From contig NZ_LMUL01000011.1 of NCBI RefSeq assembly GCF_009765965.1, positions 30,542 to 94,541 on the forward strand: a DNA stretch of 64,000 bases, read 5' to 3'. How positions within the stretch are numbered: the stretch's first letter is position 1; every line of letters begins with the position of its first letter. Shown here one piece after another: positions 44,006 through 53,378 of this stretch. Under the pieces are notes generated by a model. The model ran no database searches. It saw nothing but the letters and a program-made list of their open reading frames with translations, and was not told the origin of the DNA. The stretch is from Caulobacter sp. S45 (GTDB lineage: Bacteria; Pseudomonadota; Alphaproteobacteria; Caulobacterales; Caulobacteraceae). The position numbers and the translations under genes are program-made.

Positions 44006-45580
44006 GGCTGAGGCTGAGTAAAAAGAGCAAATCACGGTAGGCTCGTGACGCTATAGCGTTGGGTGCTGAGATGTCCCGCTTCGTTGAAGGTGAAGATCGT
44101 CAGCAGCAAGCGCTGTTGCCCAGCTGCCTCGAAGACTATGTGTCAGAAGACAATCCCGTCCGGATTGTAGATGTGTTTGTCAGCGAGCTGGATCTTGGAT
44201 CGCTCGGCTTTGATGGGATGGCGCCAGCCTCGACGGGGCGGCCAGCTTATCACCCCGCGACGTTGCTGAAGCTCTACATCTACGGCTATCTGAACAAGGT
44301 TCAGTCGAGCCGCCGGTTGGAGCGGGAGACGCATCGCAACGTCGAGCTGATGTGGCTTACGGGACGGCTGACTCCCGACCACAAGACCATCGCCAACTTC
44401 AGAAGAGACAATGGTCCTGGGATCCAGGCCACCTGCAGCCAATTCGTGGTGCTGTGCCGGGAGTTGGGCCTGTTCACCCAAGCCCTCGCGGCGATCGACG
44501 GCAGCAAGTTCAAGGCGGTCAATTCTCGCGATCGGAACTTCACCGCGACGAAGCTGAAGAAGCGGATGGAGCAGGTGGCGGAGAACATCGCCGGTTATTT
44601 GCAAGATCTGGACGCCGCCGACCGGCATGAAGGTGAACTGGCGCAGGCGCGGGCCGTGCGGCTGAGAGACAAGATCGCTCTGCTTCGCGCCCAGATGCAG
44701 GCATTGAAAACCTTGGAGGTGGAGGTCGCCGCCACGCCGGGCGGCCAAATCTCTCTGAGCGACCCCGATGCCAGGGCGATGGCCACCAGCGGACGCCTGA
44801 CGGGGATCGTCGGCTACAATGTCCAGACCGCTGTAGAGGCCGAGCACCACCTCATCGTCGCCCACGACGTGATTATGACCGGCAGCGACCGCCAGCAGCT
44901 CGCCGCCATGAGCGGGAAGGCGAAGGCCGCAATGGGCGACCAAGCGTTGGACGTACTGGCGGACCGCGGCTACTTCTCTGGCGAAGAGATCCTTGCCTGC
45001 GAAGCGATCGGCGTTACGCCCATCGTCCCAAGGCCTCAAACCTCCGGCTCGCGAGCCGACGGACGGTTCGGCAAACAGGACTTCGTCTACCTAGCCGAGC
45101 AGAACGTGTATCGCTGCCCCGCGGGCAGTCTCCTGCCGCAGCACATGACGACGGTCGAGAAGGGGCTGACCCTGCACCGCTACTGGGATCGCGCTAGCTG
45201 CCAGGCATGCCATCTCAAGCCGCAATGCACACCGAGCGTTGAGCGACGGGTGACCCGATGGGAGCATGAGGCGGTGATCGACGCCATGCAGCGACGCATG
45301 GATCTCGCGCCGTACAGCATGCGCACCCGACGAAAACTGGTCGAGCATCCGTTCGGCACGATCAAAGCCTGGACCGGCTCGGCTCACTTCCTGATGAAGA
45401 GGCTAAAGAACGTCAGAACCGAGATCAGCCTGCACGTCCTCGCCTACAACCTGAAGCGGGTAATGGCGATCCTCGGGACCAAGCCGCTCATCGCCGCCAT
45501 GCAGGTCTGACCAACCGCGCTCGCCCTCAATGCGCATTACCGGGCTGCGGAGGCCAAAAGGGTTTTTACACAGCCTCGGC
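44006..45580 (+). mobile_element. Insertion sequence, IS1182 type (first)
   Basis: Imperfect inverted repeats bracket the transposase. GGCTGAGGCTGAGTAAAAA is at 44006-44024, and TTTTTACACAGCCTCGGC is at 45563-45580, the reverse complement except for two positions. The span of about 1.57 kb is normal for the family. No target duplication could be assigned with confidence. The element sits between the MNT-HEPN gene and a second, unrelated insertion sequence. Confidence 0.6.
44071..45510 (+). CDS. IS1182-type transposase (first)
   Basis: This is a 479-residue transposase of the DDE class. It has the conserved N-terminus (YVSEDNPVRIVDVFVSELDL), then SSRRLERETHRNVELMWLTG, AIDGSKFKAVNSRDRNFT with the first catalytic Asp, VLADRGYFSGEEI with the second Asp, and the C-terminal EHPFGTIKAWTG with the Glu. 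A CxxC-type zinc segment (CQACHLKPQC) is present. ATG 44071 is preferred to an ATG four codons upstream because it gives the family start MSRFVEGED. The frame is intact, so the element may still be active. Confidence 0.93.
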   Translation: MSRFVEGEDRQQQALLPSCLEDYVSEDNPVRIVDVFVSELDLGSLGFDGMAPASTGRPAYHPATLLKLYIYGYLNKVQSSRRLERETHRNVELMWLTGRLTPDHKTIANFRRDNGPGIQATCSQFVVLCRELGLFTQALAAIDGSKFKAVNSRDRNFTATKLKKRMEQVAENIAGYLQDLDAADRHEGELAQARAVRLRDKIALLRAQMQALKTLEVEVAATPGGQISLSDPDARAMATSGRLTGIVGYNVQTAVEAEHHLIVAHDVIMTGSDRQQLAAMSGKAKAAMGDQALDVLADRGYFSGEEILACEAIGVTPIVPRPQTSGSRADGRFGKQDFVYLAEQNVYRCPAGSLLPQHMTTVEKGLTLHRYWDRASCQACHLKPQCTPSVERRVTRWEHEAVIDAMQRRMDLAPYSMRTRRKLVEHPFGTIKAWTGSAHFLMKRLKNVRTEISLHVLAYNLKRVMAILGTKPLIAAMQV

Positions 45581-45667
45581 TCTTAGCCGACTCTAGGAGA
45601 GTCCTGTTCCTGGAGGCGCCCTGGGGCCGCTCAGCCAAAATGTCGCTTCGGCCTCGACCTTGCCCCT

Positions 45668-47336
45668 GAGTGGCCGGTTTACCCCTATTCCGTTGAAGAA
45701 GTCGGGTTTTCAGACGAGCTGAAGCAGCCGGCTCGAGCCTGCGAGGGGCCGCTCTCCCCTCATGTGGCTGGGACGGCGGCCGGAGGCGCGACCAGCTTGG
45801 CGAGCTTGCGCAGGTTCTGGGCGGTGGCGGCGAGGAGGAACTTGTCCCGGGCGCCGTTGGGACCTCGCAGTCGCAGCCGACCGAGTTTCAGGATGCGTTT
45901 GAGGTGGGCGAAGAGCATCTCCACCTTCTTCCTCTGACGCCGGGAGGTCAGGTAGGCGTCGGTCTTGGCGATTGCGCGCGCCATGTCCCTCGCACCCTCG
46001 TGGATCGAGCGGGCGACCTTCCTGGCCGGCTCCTTTGGGCAGCACCGGGCCTTCAGGGCGCATGGCGTGCAGTCGTACTTGCTCGCCCGATAGCGGATCT
46101 CGTTGTCGCCGCCGACCGTGCCGCGCGTGGTCAAGGCGCTCCCGCCGGGACAGCGGTAGGTGTCGCTGTCATGGTCGTAGCTGAAGTCGGCGCGAGAGAA
46201 GGTCCCGTCCGTACGCCTGCTCTTGTCGAACACCGGGATATGCGGCTCAATTCCTTGCTCATGGACCAGCCACGCCAGCATCTCAGCGGAGCCATATCCG
46301 GTGTCGGCGGCCAGCCGCTCCGGCCAGATCTCGAAGCGCTCGCGGGTACGCTCGATCATCGTCTTGGCCGCCGCCACCTCCGCCTGGCGCACGGCGGTGG
46401 AGGGCTCAACGTCGACGATGACGGCGTGGTCGAGGTCGATCAGGTAGTTTGTGCAGTAGGCGAAGTAGGCCAGCCCGCCGTCCGCGCCTGTCCAGCGCGA
46501 AGCGGGGTCGGAAGGCGACAGCATCTTGGGCGTCACCGGCGTGGCCGCGCCAAAGGCAGCCTCGTCCAGCACCGCCAGATACTCTTCGACCGCTCGATTG
46601 GTCACATCCGGCGGCAGGCCCTCGGCGCCTGGAACGCAGGTCTGGCGGCTGGCGTCGGCCTCGATCAGGCTGGCGTCCACCGCAAAGCCTTCGCCTCCGA
46701 CCAGGCCCTCGTCCATGCAGCGGCGCACCACCTGCTCGAACAGGCGGCGCAGGAGATCGCTGTCGCGGAAGCGGCCGTGTCGGTTCTTGGAGAAGGTGGA
46801 ATGGTCGGGTACATCGCCCTCCAGCCCCAGCCGGCAGAACCAACGGTAGGCCAGGTTGAGGTGCACCTCTTCGCACAGCCGTCGTTCAGAGCGGATGCCG
46901 AAGCAGTAGCCCACCACCAGCATGAAGCCTGGGTCGAGGTCGGGCGCAGGACGTCCGCGGAGAGCGCCAGCAGCGAGCGGCGGATCGAACCGTGGAAGCA
47001 TGCCGCGCCCACCATGTAGCTTTGGCCCGACAATCTGGTCCAAGTCGGGTCGTTCGGCTGCAACGGCCAACAAGGCCGATGCGAACTCACATGTGGCAGT
47101 GAGCATGCCGATAGGCAAAGTCAAATCTGAGTTCTTCGCTGGACCTCGCCACGTCGCCAAACCGCTCAGAGGTCCATTTCAGCTGTTCGGCTTGACCCTG
47201 TCATTTCTGGTCTCCCGCTAACCAACAGAGGAAGCGCGGCAATCGATGAAGGGATCCGGCTCCAATACCTCCGAATGTCAATCAGGGTGCAAATGCTCCC
47301 TGACTGACCTAACCCGAATAAGGGTAAAAGCCGACA
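45668..47336 (-). mobile_element. Insertion sequence, IS1182 type (second)
   Basis: GGCCGGTTTACCCCTATTCC near 45671 and the reverse complement of 47311-47336 (TCGGCTTTTACCCTTATTCG) are similar and may be the terminal repeats, giving about 1.67 kb. The match is imperfect, so the limits are tentative. The element is in the opposite orientation to the first and not closely related to it. Confidence 0.4.
45760..47160 (-). CDS. IS1182-type transposase (second)
   Basis: This 466-residue transposase has strong family motifs: GYCFGIRSERRLCEEVHLNL, DHSTFSKNRHGRFRDSDLLR, FAVDASLIEADASRQ (first Asp), AADTGYGSAEMLAWLV (second Asp), CALKARCCPK (cysteine segment) and VEMLFAHLKRILKLGRLRLR (Glu). The first ~80 residues do not match the usual N-terminus (only GRPAPDLDPGFMLVVGYCFG aligns), so the 5' end may be mutated or the true start may lie further in, at MLPRFDPPL. 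It is probably a recent but possibly damaged insertion. Confidence 0.85.
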   Translation of the reverse strand: MATWRGPAKNSDLTLPIGMLTATCEFASALLAVAAERPDLDQIVGPKLHGGRGMLPRFDPPLAAGALRGRPAPDLDPGFMLVVGYCFGIRSERRLCEEVHLNLAYRWFCRLGLEGDVPDHSTFSKNRHGRFRDSDLLRRLFEQVVRRCMDEGLVGGEGFAVDASLIEADASRQTCVPGAEGLPPDVTNRAVEEYLAVLDEAAFGAATPVTPKMLSPSDPASRWTGADGGLAYFAYCTNYLIDLDHAVIVDVEPSTAVRQAEVAAAKTMIERTRERFEIWPERLAADTGYGSAEMLAWLVHEQGIEPHIPVFDKSRRTDGTFSRADFSYDHDSDTYRCPGGSALTTRGTVGGDNEIRYRASKYDCTPCALKARCCPKEPARKVARSIHEGARDMARAIAKTDAYLTSRRQRKKVEMLFAHLKRILKLGRLRLRGPNGARDKFLLAATAQNLRKLAKLVAPPAAVPAT

Positions 47337-50004: not shown

Positions 50005-50316
50005 TTAAGGTTTGAGGCCGCCCCCCGCAAACTGAGGGGGCGGAGACCTCAAGGAACACTCGGCGAGCGTTGGAGTTGACGGGGCGTCGAGCTGCTCATA
50101 GAAATATCCCACCGGCACCCCAAGGGCGTGGGCAAGGTGCCACAACCGTTCAGCGGATAGGCGCGTTATACCGCACTCATAATTGTGAATTTGCTGGAAG
50201 CCGCAACCCAAGGAACTCGCCACTTTCGCTTGGGTAAGTTTCAATTGAGTGCGGCGCGCTCTTATCTGCTTTCCGATGTGTAGGTTGACGTCAGGCGACA
50301 CGGGCCCCTCACTCAT
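50005..50316 (-). CDS. XRE-family (Cro/CI-type) transcriptional regulator
   Basis: This protein of about 103 residues starts from ATG 50316 (upstream ATGs in frame also exist). The helix-turn-helix is clear: LHIGKQIRARRTQLKLTQAK, then VASSLGCGFQQIHNYECGIT and RLSAERLWHLAHALGVPVGY. The C-terminus (YFYEQLDAPSTPTL) resembles short alphaproteobacterial XRE regulators. It binds DNA as a dimer. Its target is unknown, and no partner gene is adjacent. Confidence 0.85.
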   Translation of the reverse strand: MSEGPVSPDVNLHIGKQIRARRTQLKLTQAKVASSLGCGFQQIHNYECGITRLSAERLWHLAHALGVPVGYFYEQLDAPSTPTLAECSLRSPPPQFAGGGLKP

Positions 50317-50429
50317 CTCAAAACGGTATTTAGACCGCATGGGAGCAAGGATCGTGCCTCCTAGTTGAGCGAGATAGGCGCTAGCAACCAAAGGCGACGA
50401 AATCAAACATTTTCTCGAACTAAGACTCC

Positions 50430-50690
50430 AGCGCTAACCTGGGCGGATCGTTTCCTCCAGGAAAAGACTGGGAAGCGATCCGCCGCCTTCGACGCCGTGG
50501 GACTGCTCGGAAGTGGTCCAGAGGCGGATCAAGCGAGCGGAATGGGGCCACGGCGACTATTGTCGTCGACCCCTCAGGCCCACGACAGGGCGACTACGCC
50601 TCGCCACGACCGATACCGGGTGACGAACAGAGGAGACCCGCTTCTCAGACCCCGCGCGGCCCGTTGGCCGCGCGGGATTGATTTACCTAC
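50430..50690 (+). ncRNA. Candidate structured RNA (unidentified)
   Basis: This gap between two minus-strand genes holds a chain of strong stems. GGCGGATCG (50442-50450) pairs with CGATCCGCC (50476-50484) and encloses TTTCC-tcca-GGAAA. GGGG..CGGCGAC-TATT-GTCGTCG..CCCC lies at 50544-50573. GGCGA/TCGCC lies at 50589-50605. An 11-bp perfect stem closes the region at 50651-50676. The density of pairing is far above the neighbouring DNA. Promoter and transcript ends are unknown. I could not match it to RNase P RNA, tmRNA, 6S or SRP RNA. The strand is a guess. Confidence 0.35.
50651..50676. terminator. Eleven-base-pair GC hairpin, possible terminator
   Basis: CCCGCGCGGCC (50651-50661) and GGCCGCGCGGG (50666-50676) pair perfectly around CGTT. 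On the plus strand ATTGATTTACC follows, a weak T-rich tail. On the minus strand it lies 28 bp beyond the lectin fragment stop, without a T-run. Confidence 0.5.
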
Positions 50691-50704
50691 GGTTGGAAAA
50701 CACC

Positions 50705-51124
50705 TCATCTGGCGTGTTGGTGCAGGTATCGAGAAACCACGGGGGCTCCGTCTTTAGGGGCCGAGGCGATTAGGCATTTGCCCGACGACACCTCATGGAT
50801 GCGGCCATCAGGGGAGAGGGCGAACCGTTGATTGGCGCCAAAATGGCATTGCCACAGTTGCACGGGGGTGCCGTCGGCACGGGACGAGCGGCCACGGACA
50901 TCTAGACATAGGCCACCATCGTCACCGCAACGTCGCCGGTTCGATCTCGCCGACCCGGCGCACGGCAGATCGAGATGCTCAGCTAAGGCGGCTCGGCTGC
51001 GGGCCACGTGGGCGATAGGCAGGGGCTCGCCGGTTTTGCACCTACCTCGCGCCTGTTGAGGAAGGGTCGCAAACACGCAGCACATCCACCGGCCCGCCCG
51101 GTTGCAGCGCGTCGAACACTCCAA
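50705..51124 (-). CDS. Ricin-B-lectin domain fragment
   Basis: From about residue 70, the frame encodes half a beta-trefoil lectin: GGLCLDVRGRSSRADGTPVQ, LWQCHFGANQRFALSPDGRI, then SGKCLIASAPKDGAP. CLDV, QLWxC and the QxF/W position are typical ricin-B features. The first 70 residues are Arg/Cys-rich and overlap the 3' end of the phosphatase gene, so they are probably not genuine. Only about one and a half of the three lectin repeats remain. It is most likely a gene remnant. Confidence 0.45.
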   Translation of the reverse strand: MECSTRCNRAGRWMCCVFATLPQQARGRCKTGEPLPIAHVARSRAALAEHLDLPCAGSARSNRRRCGDDGGLCLDVRGRSSRADGTPVQLWQCHFGANQRFALSPDGRIHEVSSGKCLIASAPKDGAPVVSRYLHQHAR

Positions 51125-51776
51125 CGGTCAATACGCCCGTCCAAAATGCGCCCGTGTCCAGGTTCGTGCGATGGGCGAGCAACTCTGGCTCGGCGGCTTC
51201 ACGCTTGCCCTCCCATTCGGGCGTGTGACCATGGACGATATGTTTTCGGCCAGCGAAATCGGCTGGATCGGCGCGCAGGAACCGTTCTCGAATCCACAAC
51301 AGGGTATGCTCATCCTGGTCGTCCGCAGGTTTCGATGGGTCCAAGCCGGCATGGACATAAATCCGGTGCTCGTCCTCCAAGATCGTGGGGAGCGCTCTCA
51401 GCCAGTCGAGATGAGTTGGCGGAACCAGATGCATCGCCGCCATTAGCCCGCTCTGGCTCCCGTAGGAGCGAAGCGTGGCCTCACCCCCCGCGTGGATCCA
51501 ATAAATCGCCTCGTCGGCGTCCCCTAGAAACGCCCGGAGCATCATGTCCTCATGATTTCCCTTGAGGCAGACCGCCGCGCTCAGGCGCTGGGCCACCATG
51601 AGGCTATCGATCACCTTCGAACTCTGCGGCCCACGATCGACGTAGTCGCCCAAAAACACCACCCGGCCGGACCTGCCCCCCGCATGCTGATTGATCCTCT
51701 CCACAGCTTGGCAGAGCAGATCGTAGCGACCGTGAATGTCTCCGACGACATAGGTGAGAGTCGGACGGACCGTCAT
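51042..51776 (-). CDS. Serine/threonine protein phosphatase (PPP metallophosphatase)
   Basis: This 244-residue protein has all bacterial PPP motifs: VVGDIHGRYDLL, VFLGDYVDRGPQS, CLKGNHEDMML, the His in YVHAGLDP and the C-terminal VHGHTPEWEG. It binds two metal ions and dephosphorylates Ser/Thr or Tyr residues, or acts as a diadenosine tetraphosphatase. ATG 51776 (MTVRPTLTYVVGDIHG) is selected. No kinase gene is nearby. Confidence 0.92.
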   Translation of the reverse strand: MTVRPTLTYVVGDIHGRYDLLCQAVERINQHAGGRSGRVVFLGDYVDRGPQSSKVIDSLMVAQRLSAAVCLKGNHEDMMLRAFLGDADEAIYWIHAGGEATLRSYGSQSGLMAAMHLVPPTHLDWLRALPTILEDEHRIYVHAGLDPSKPADDQDEHTLLWIRERFLRADPADFAGRKHIVHGHTPEWEGKREAAEPELLAHRTNLDTGAFWTGVLTVGVFDALQPGGPVDVLRVCDPSSTGAR

Positions 51777-52337
51777 TGCTGCACGCTCCAAGGATCGTGA
51801 TGGGGCCTTTTATGTAACTCGCCGCTCGCCGCTACCCACCCCTAAGCTACCTTCGTTGCTCTATGTCTCCCGTCCAACGGCTGGAAGGCTCTCACGACGC
51901 TCGCCAACCGCGAGCGCTTAATCGCGTGTTCGCGCGGGCGCAACGGCTCGCACTGTAACGAGCAGGCTCCAAGCCGAGGCTTCGCATCGGGGAGGGGGCT
52001 GATGGCCGTCTTCCTTAAGGGTCAGCCCTACCCCCCGAAAGGCGGGGTGGAAAACGACGCCTCGTCCATATGGTCGAGAAGACGCGATCTCGTCATTTCA
52101 GCGGCGACGGCGCTCCAAGGCGTCCCACTCGGTCGACGCCACCGCGGCGCCTACGCCGCTCGCCTCGTTTCAGGACCGGTGAGCGACAACAGCGCCGACG
52201 CCACTCGGCTTTGGCGGTCGCGCCTCTTTGGATAAACCCTGGGCTGACCGCGCTCGCCGGAACAAAGGCTCACCGACATCCACCCAGTGACCATTCCAAA
52301 GGCCGCTGGATGTCAAAGCGATAAATCTGGCGCCACC
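51777..52337. other. Intergenic region with one possible small gene
   Basis: The only candidate is ATG 52002 (plus strand, stop 52235), which has GGGGAGGGGGCTG before it and encodes MAVFLKGQPYPPKGGVENDA followed by an Arg-rich end. It is not recognised and may be chance. The rest is GC-rich and without features. Confidence 0.3.
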
Positions 52338-52940
52338 TCAATGGTCACTGCTCAGGGGCGACCGACGGGAGCTAGAAGCGTCCGCATTCAGCCGTCCCTC
52401 GGCTCTGAGGCGGTACACAGAGGCTATTCCAATCCCCAAGCGCCTCGCGATCTCAGCTGCGCCGTGACCCTGAGCCTGTAGGTCGCTGACTTTTGCGACG
52501 TCGATCGAGGCCGGCCGCCCCCCCATATAAGCGCCTCGCGCCTTCGCAGCCTTGATGCCTTCAACCTGGCGCTCACGGCGAGCATTGACTTCGAAATCGA
52601 GGAATAACACCAGCATATCGCCAAGGGCCTCCCCAGAGGGCGTGCGGGTATCGATCCCCTGCTCGATCGCTCTAAGCGATGCATCCTTCGATTTCAGCAG
52701 GCTTAGGACGCCTTGAAGCGCACTCATCGACTGGCCAAAGCGGTCGAGCCGGGTGACGACGACGCTGTCGCCCGCTTGCAGCTCGGCAAGGAGGGCGGCC
52801 AATTTGGCGCCGCGACGCCGCGACTTGGCGCTTGCGATCTCAGTGACGATTTTGGTGCAGCCCGCCGCCCGCAAACTCGCGCGCTGCGCCACGACGTCGG
52901 GATCGGTGCTGCTCGCCCGCGCATATCCATAACAGGTCAT
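52338..52940 (-). CDS. Serine recombinase (resolvase/invertase family)
   Basis: This 200-residue protein starts MTCYGYARASSTDPDVVAQR, with the nucleophile Ser at position 10 or 11. The catalytic arginines are in VVVTRLDRFGQSM. A long helix EVNARRERQVEGIKAAKARG and a C-terminal HTH (SDLQAQGHGAAEIARRLGIG, then IASVYRLR) complete the small serine recombinase layout. It cuts and rejoins DNA at short inverted sites, as resolvases of Tn3-type elements do. No transposase or resolution site was found next to it, so it is an isolated gene or the remnant of a mobile element. Confidence 0.92.
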   Translation of the reverse strand: MTCYGYARASSTDPDVVAQRASLRAAGCTKIVTEIASAKSRRRGAKLAALLAELQAGDSVVVTRLDRFGQSMSALQGVLSLLKSKDASLRAIEQGIDTRTPSGEALGDMLVLFLDFEVNARRERQVEGIKAAKARGAYMGGRPASIDVAKVSDLQAQGHGAAEIARRLGIGIASVYRLRAEGRLNADASSSRRSPLSSDH

Positions 52941-53378
52941 CGATTCCCCACCCTAATGGCGCTCAGACCGATTCCCAAGCTCCGCGCCCTGGCCGTCACC
53001 CGGACAGCCACGCCCTTTTAGCCTTCCCCTCGCGCAGATAAATGCAGCGGACTGAGCGCCATTTCGGCATGCTCTGTCACGCAACCCACACTGCGATCAC
53101 GGGCGAGGCTCGGGCGGTCATGGCCGCCGACCGCCCCAACAGACAGCGCCTCTGGCGGACTGGCTGGCGCCGCCTTGACGCCGCCTTCGAAAACAAGCCT
53201 CGCTTCTGCACTGATCGACTGGCCCGCAATGTGGGGGATCCACCTCAACATGATGCGCAGAGATCGTATGAAACGTCCCCGTTCGCCTGAACCGGGCCCA
53301 CAGAAAGATCGGGGGGCCGCCGAGCCCCCGTCCAAGTTGCAATCCTCAGGCCCAAGCCGGACTAGGTTGCTTGGCTCG
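52941..53378. other. Intergenic region upstream of the recombinase
   Basis: It contains the likely terminator of the glucanase gene (53312-53329) and no convincing gene. A plus-strand frame from 53042 (82 codons) has a mixed composition that I cannot support. Confidence 0.4.
53312..53329 (-). terminator. Probable terminator of the GH16/RTX gene
   Basis: On the minus strand GGGGGC-TCGGCG-GCCCCC forms a 6-bp GC stem, followed by CGATCTTTCTG. It lies 50 bp beyond the glucanase stop codon. Confidence 0.5.

Follow-up and report, generated by a model that had tools for sequence, protein, structure and literature searches.

Hairpins between two leftward genes of Caulobacter sp. S45: a candidate plus-strand small RNA

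In the window (the whole stretch of 64,000 nucleotides that was analysed, whose positions are used throughout) a row of hairpins sits between a leftward xre-type gene (50005-50319) and leftward lectin-fragment/phosphoesterase sequence (50705-51124 and 51042-51791). The hairpins are clearly real, beyond what dinucleotide shuffles give by chance. Our tentative explanation, to which we give a probability of about 0.42, is a small RNA of about 240 nt, specific to this lineage, that would be encoded on the plus strand and end at the hairpin at 50651-50676. This reading is narrowly favoured because the folding excess and a terminator-like tail are both found on the plus strand, where no protein gene is evident that would need a terminator. 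It is almost as likely that there is no RNA gene, and that two strong inverted repeats (hairpins A and F) have come by chance to lie some 170 bp apart in intergenic DNA without a function, with the sequence between them folding like GC-rich sequence. The features of the locus are as follows.

50440-50680, plus strand: structured region and candidate RNA, its ends taken from the outer hairpins; MFE -126.3 kcal/mol.
50442-50484, plus strand: hairpin A, a 14-bp stem with one G-U pair and 3 bp more inside.
50496-50584, plus strand: domain B, two stem-loops under a 6-bp closing helix, including the TATT-loop stem at 50544-50573; pair probabilities 0.74-0.99.
50630-50646, plus strand: small 6-bp hairpin with arms 50630-50635/50641-50646; pair probabilities 0.84-0.88.
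50651-50676, plus strand: hairpin F, a perfect 11-bp G-C stem with a 4-nt loop and with ATTGATTTAC after it; resembles a terminator on the plus strand.
50005-50319, minus strand: xre-type regulator gene (HTH_3, E 1.4e-10).
51042-51791, minus strand: calcineurin-like phosphoesterase gene (Metallophos, E 2.7e-15).

In the predicted fold, the outer stem that a preliminary description had drawn between GGCGGATCG (50442-50450) and CGATCCGCC (50476-50484) is formed. However, the TTTCC/GGAAA stem that was placed inside it is not: the predicted partner of TTTCC (50451-50455) is GGAAG (50471-50475) and not GGAAA (50460-50464), and therefore the first stem is an unbroken helix of 14 bp that contains one G-U pair. 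The described broken stem of 11 pairs with a TATT loop was recovered (50544-50547/50570-50573 and 50551-50557/50562-50568), as was the perfect 11-bp terminal stem (50651-50661/50666-50676, 4-nt loop). For the claimed 5-bp stem, a stem is indeed predicted in that place, but it is probably the 6-bp one listed above. Stems 14 bp long or longer that have no more than one mismatch and a loop of 3-20 occur 12 times in 464 kb of this genome, three of them in the window, and perfect stems 11 bp long or longer that have a loop of 3-8 occur 14 times, once in the window. Both kinds together within a span of 260 bp are found once in the 464 kb, at this locus, which argues against a chance arrangement in non-functional DNA, with the reservation that the limits of this combination were chosen after the locus had been seen.

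Bacterial small RNA genes are expected to fold better than shuffled sequence, and the plus strand of 50440-50680 does so: its -126.3 kcal/mol compare with a shuffle mean of -99.1 kcal/mol (z -5.71), and none of 600 dinucleotide shuffles reached this value. For the minus strand the z-score is -3.10 (4/600 shuffles). This bias to one strand agrees with an RNA gene on the plus strand and speaks against the absence of an RNA gene. With the ends set to 50400-50700, the plus strand still gives z = -5.02, and in a scan of the window with 24 shuffles per tile, the lowest of 261 plus-strand tiles is the one at 50471 (z -3.80, mean -0.33), part of which falls within the locus.

Most of the folding excess is carried by the 14-bp stem (50442-50484) and the 11-bp stem (50651-50676). 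When hairpin A is taken out of 50440-50680, the plus-strand z-score is -3.66, and when hairpin F is taken out it is -4.25. Without both, the remaining 166 bases show z -1.85 on the plus strand (28/600 shuffles) and -0.37 on the minus strand (205/600), which is in favour of two isolated hairpins in non-functional DNA. On the other side stands domain B, which folded alone (50493-50586) reaches z -3.55 on the plus and -2.67 on the minus strand, its boundaries being set post hoc from the fold already seen.

As a yardstick, 400 kb of the genome together with the window (464 kb) were folded on both strands in 3820 windows, giving 7640 strands, and dinucleotide content was corrected by regression. 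Relative to these strands the residual of the candidate is -4.1 to -4.2 sd on the plus strand and -2.2 to -2.5 sd on the minus strand. Depending on the exact ends, 23-24 of the 7640 strands are lower than the candidate plus strand, several of them being the two strands or adjacent windows of one place. When 15 other outlier places near the top of this ranking were compared with the candidate, 13 had a stronger residual and two a slightly weaker one. The locus does stand out, yet outliers of this sort recur every few tens of kilobases.

Eleven of the 15 outlier places share palindromic sequence among themselves, in groups of three, four, two and two, and the other four do not. The groups consist of L050 11041, L046 5401 and L048 9361; of L052 18961, L044 14281, L049 19321 and L038 19681; of L049 18361 and L045 721; and of L046 14761 and L047 7441. 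Within these dispersed palindromic repeats the common stretches are 33-160 nt long, 69-91% alike and match in both orientations. That stronger residuals are found at 13 places in 464 kb and that most of the places compared are palindromic repeats supports the explanation without an RNA gene. The candidate is like these intergenic repeats of the same genome in its strong hairpin folding. However, it is a row of hairpins instead of one long palindrome and it is single-copy, with one genome match at E <= 0.001 in a search that scored 40 of the 53 candidates from its first look, so that a dispersed palindromic repeat was rejected. It also has no sequence in common with the 15 other outlier places. 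The single copy and the lack of sequence shared with other strong folds, unlike 11 of the 15, speak for a small RNA. A caution applies here: in this GC-rich genome equally strong folding is not rare, and among the places compared it is mostly that of palindromic repeats, therefore folding energy alone cannot identify an RNA gene.

As far as can be seen the locus is not conserved, no credible relative being found in the collections searched, and more distant relatives may exist. The lack of conservation in these genomes is a further point for non-functional DNA. However, the xre and phosphoesterase genes themselves have only distant relatives in two other species of the genus, and for this reason the lack of conservation cannot separate a young RNA gene from junk. 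In these two species, one genome of which is 85% complete, no match to the locus worth naming was obtained. Among 60 relatives including the strain itself, its own genome was the sole match at E <= 0.001. Plasmids gave no match at 0.01 with 1501 bases and a best E of 0.02 with 301 bases, in short stretches only; for phages the best E was 0.3, again in short stretches only. Viral contigs contained neither an exact match to the hairpin pattern nor a relative of Xre.

In 390 genomes of the family, the own genome included, 230 had a match at E <= 0.05, where roughly 20 were expected. Apart from the own copy, each of these covers at most 53 of the 301 bases among the matches listed. Nine were aligned, and at five loci the ORFs were inspected: in four of them (L022, L027, L028 and L058) a long ORF contains the match, and in L025 the match is at the edge of such an ORF. 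We discount the best match (E = 7.1e-6), which is a judgement, since genomes as GC-rich as these inflate E-values.

A covariance model (R1) was also used, which is weak as the single sequence was entered twice with its own predicted structure. It scores 305.6 bits on its own sequence. Over 388 sampled family genomes (own included) it found three others at 19.9-22 bits, whose alignments have large deletions and broken pairs and which were treated as chance matches. Over 385 sampled genomes of the class, a sample overlapping with that of the family, only the own genome was found. One other match over 41 relatives (E 0.05) was rejected as it falls in a coding ORF. Elsewhere in 400 kb of the own genome its best matches reach 11.6-13.2 bits. 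Within the window it finds, besides the locus, only three of the locus's own hairpins read on the minus strand and one match of 7.1 bits. Searches of more than 40 genomes were run with stricter filters, by which weak relatives could be lost.

For the plus-strand small RNA we infer a transcript whose start would lie between xre and 50442 and whose end would be the hairpin at 50651-50676. The RNA would have a hairpin at its 5' end, a branched domain in the middle and a terminator as its last hairpin, and may pair with targets via its loops or single-stranded parts, like ordinary bacterial small RNAs; alternatively, it may affect the divergent xre gene beside it. The tail of hairpin F (ATTGATTT) is moderately T-rich on the plus strand. 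A simple scan of 1501 bases gave one terminator-like site, compared with 1.4 expected by shuffles. No promoter-like site came out of the simple scan. Under two simple consensus models, including the Caulobacter consensus, the best match in 50320-50450 does not stand out either: 907 and 938 of 1000 stretches of that length, drawn at random from the genome, reach it. The absence of a promoter-like site and of a credible relative in the collections searched, the only moderate T-richness of the tail, the weak terminator statistics and the z-score of -1.85 without hairpins A and F stand against the small RNA.

The region lies directly upstream of xre on the strand of that gene, and the structure could belong to the minus strand, as a folded 5' leader or attenuator of xre or as operator repeats for the Xre product. 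GGCGGATC is present three times when both strands are counted, and the minus strand does beat most shuffles (all but 4 of the 600), both in keeping with such a role. However, folding of this strand is weaker (z -3.10 vs -5.71), and GGCGGATCG is common as such, with six occurrences in the window against 2.76 expected. Upstream regions of xre relatives also argue against a leader or operator. Matches were found in 369 genomes, and for 19 of these relatives a one-strand scan covered the 745 bases that lie upstream of the matched stretch; three of the 19 loci are cut by contig ends, so that their offsets may be wrong. In 18 the best residual was no lower than -2.9. The nineteenth, L068, has a residual of -4.1 at the far end of the stretch, which reads as coding by eye and has 12 bases in common with the candidate. 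We regard a leader or operator of xre as unlikely, and as less likely than either the small RNA or non-functional hairpins.

The preliminary description had found by eye no match to RNase P RNA, tmRNA, 6S or SRP RNA. With covariance models, no Rfam 15 family exceeds its gathering threshold anywhere in the window, and a tRNA and tmRNA scan of the window found none. A permissive Rfam search of 501 bases returned only ncr1175 (E 6.5, 14.3 of 60 bits). 6S RNA is a structured bacterial RNA of a few hundred nucleotides and in being structured resembles the candidate; the 6S RNA of this genome (RF00013, 56.6 bits) is located on another contig, and no match to it was found at the locus. Small RNAs of Alphaproteobacteria, e.g., CrfA, are intergenic and structured and have a terminator-like 3' end; the candidate, too, is intergenic and structured and may have such an end. 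It differs from them in that no Rfam family is found over threshold and that its RNA is predicted only. CrfA itself (Rfam RF01527) has a separate locus in the genome (L045 9217-9336, 52.8 bits); it and three tRNAs were found when 14 of 20 stretches taken from the genome were scanned for known RNAs, and its presence fits a Caulobacter-like alphaproteobacterium. If transcribed, the candidate would count as a further orphan small RNA of such a bacterium, without a relative in Rfam.

That no protein frame fits, as the preliminary description stated, holds insofar as no Pfam match over the cut-off was obtained, but plus-strand frames of 130 and 85 codons are open. All nine stop-to-stop segments of at least 30 codons that overlap the region were compared with Pfam, the sole match being DUF4666 with E = 0.039 and 15.1 bits (cut-off 24). 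No clear period-3 GC pattern is seen in 50400-50639. Both results speak against a decayed protein gene, whose codon pattern would yield the short matches in relatives. Several of these DNA matches do lie inside long ORFs, as such a gene would suggest; however, the ORFs of the matches that were opened are unlike one another, and four peptide alignments were equalled by 72, 290, 144 and 192 of 500 shuffles. A decayed gene is therefore very improbable.

Both neighbouring genes point leftward as described before. The start of xre probably lies near 50319, the ORF itself extending to 50406. Relatives of xre are at most 57% identical among the matches listed, and a scan of genome contigs with the Xre protein gave two loci (36-37% identical), which lie beside ORFs that are ssb- and enolase-like by eye. 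The phosphoesterase has a 55% identical paralogue on the same contig (G000 contig C6 141213-141902), and no blastn DNA similarity at this paralogue reaches into the hairpin region. At 50705-51124 of the window, part of a ricin-B lectin domain (positions 10-70 of the 126 in the profile) is encoded in an ORF that begins inside the phosphoesterase gene in another frame and may be what is left of a gene.

Genes for a transposase and a serine resolvase, as well as the partial ricin-B lectin domain, are found within about 6 kb of the locus, and this poorly conserved stretch would suit hairpins without a function. There is also a small chance that the locus represents a new class of structured RNA limited to one lineage, with a 5' hairpin, a branched domain and a terminator; it would be encoded on a strain-specific segment, next to a diverged Xre regulator with which it would act together. 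No flanking repeats of the kind expected at the borders of an insertion are evident around the locus. Two convergent transposase-like genes are located at 44059-47160 of the window, of which 45760-47160 matches DDE transposase families and 44059-45510 was assigned only by eye. An inverted repeat of 16 nt, its arms 77 nt apart (window 52955-53063), lies immediately upstream of the serine resolvase gene (52338-52940) and is possibly the recombination site of the resolvase.
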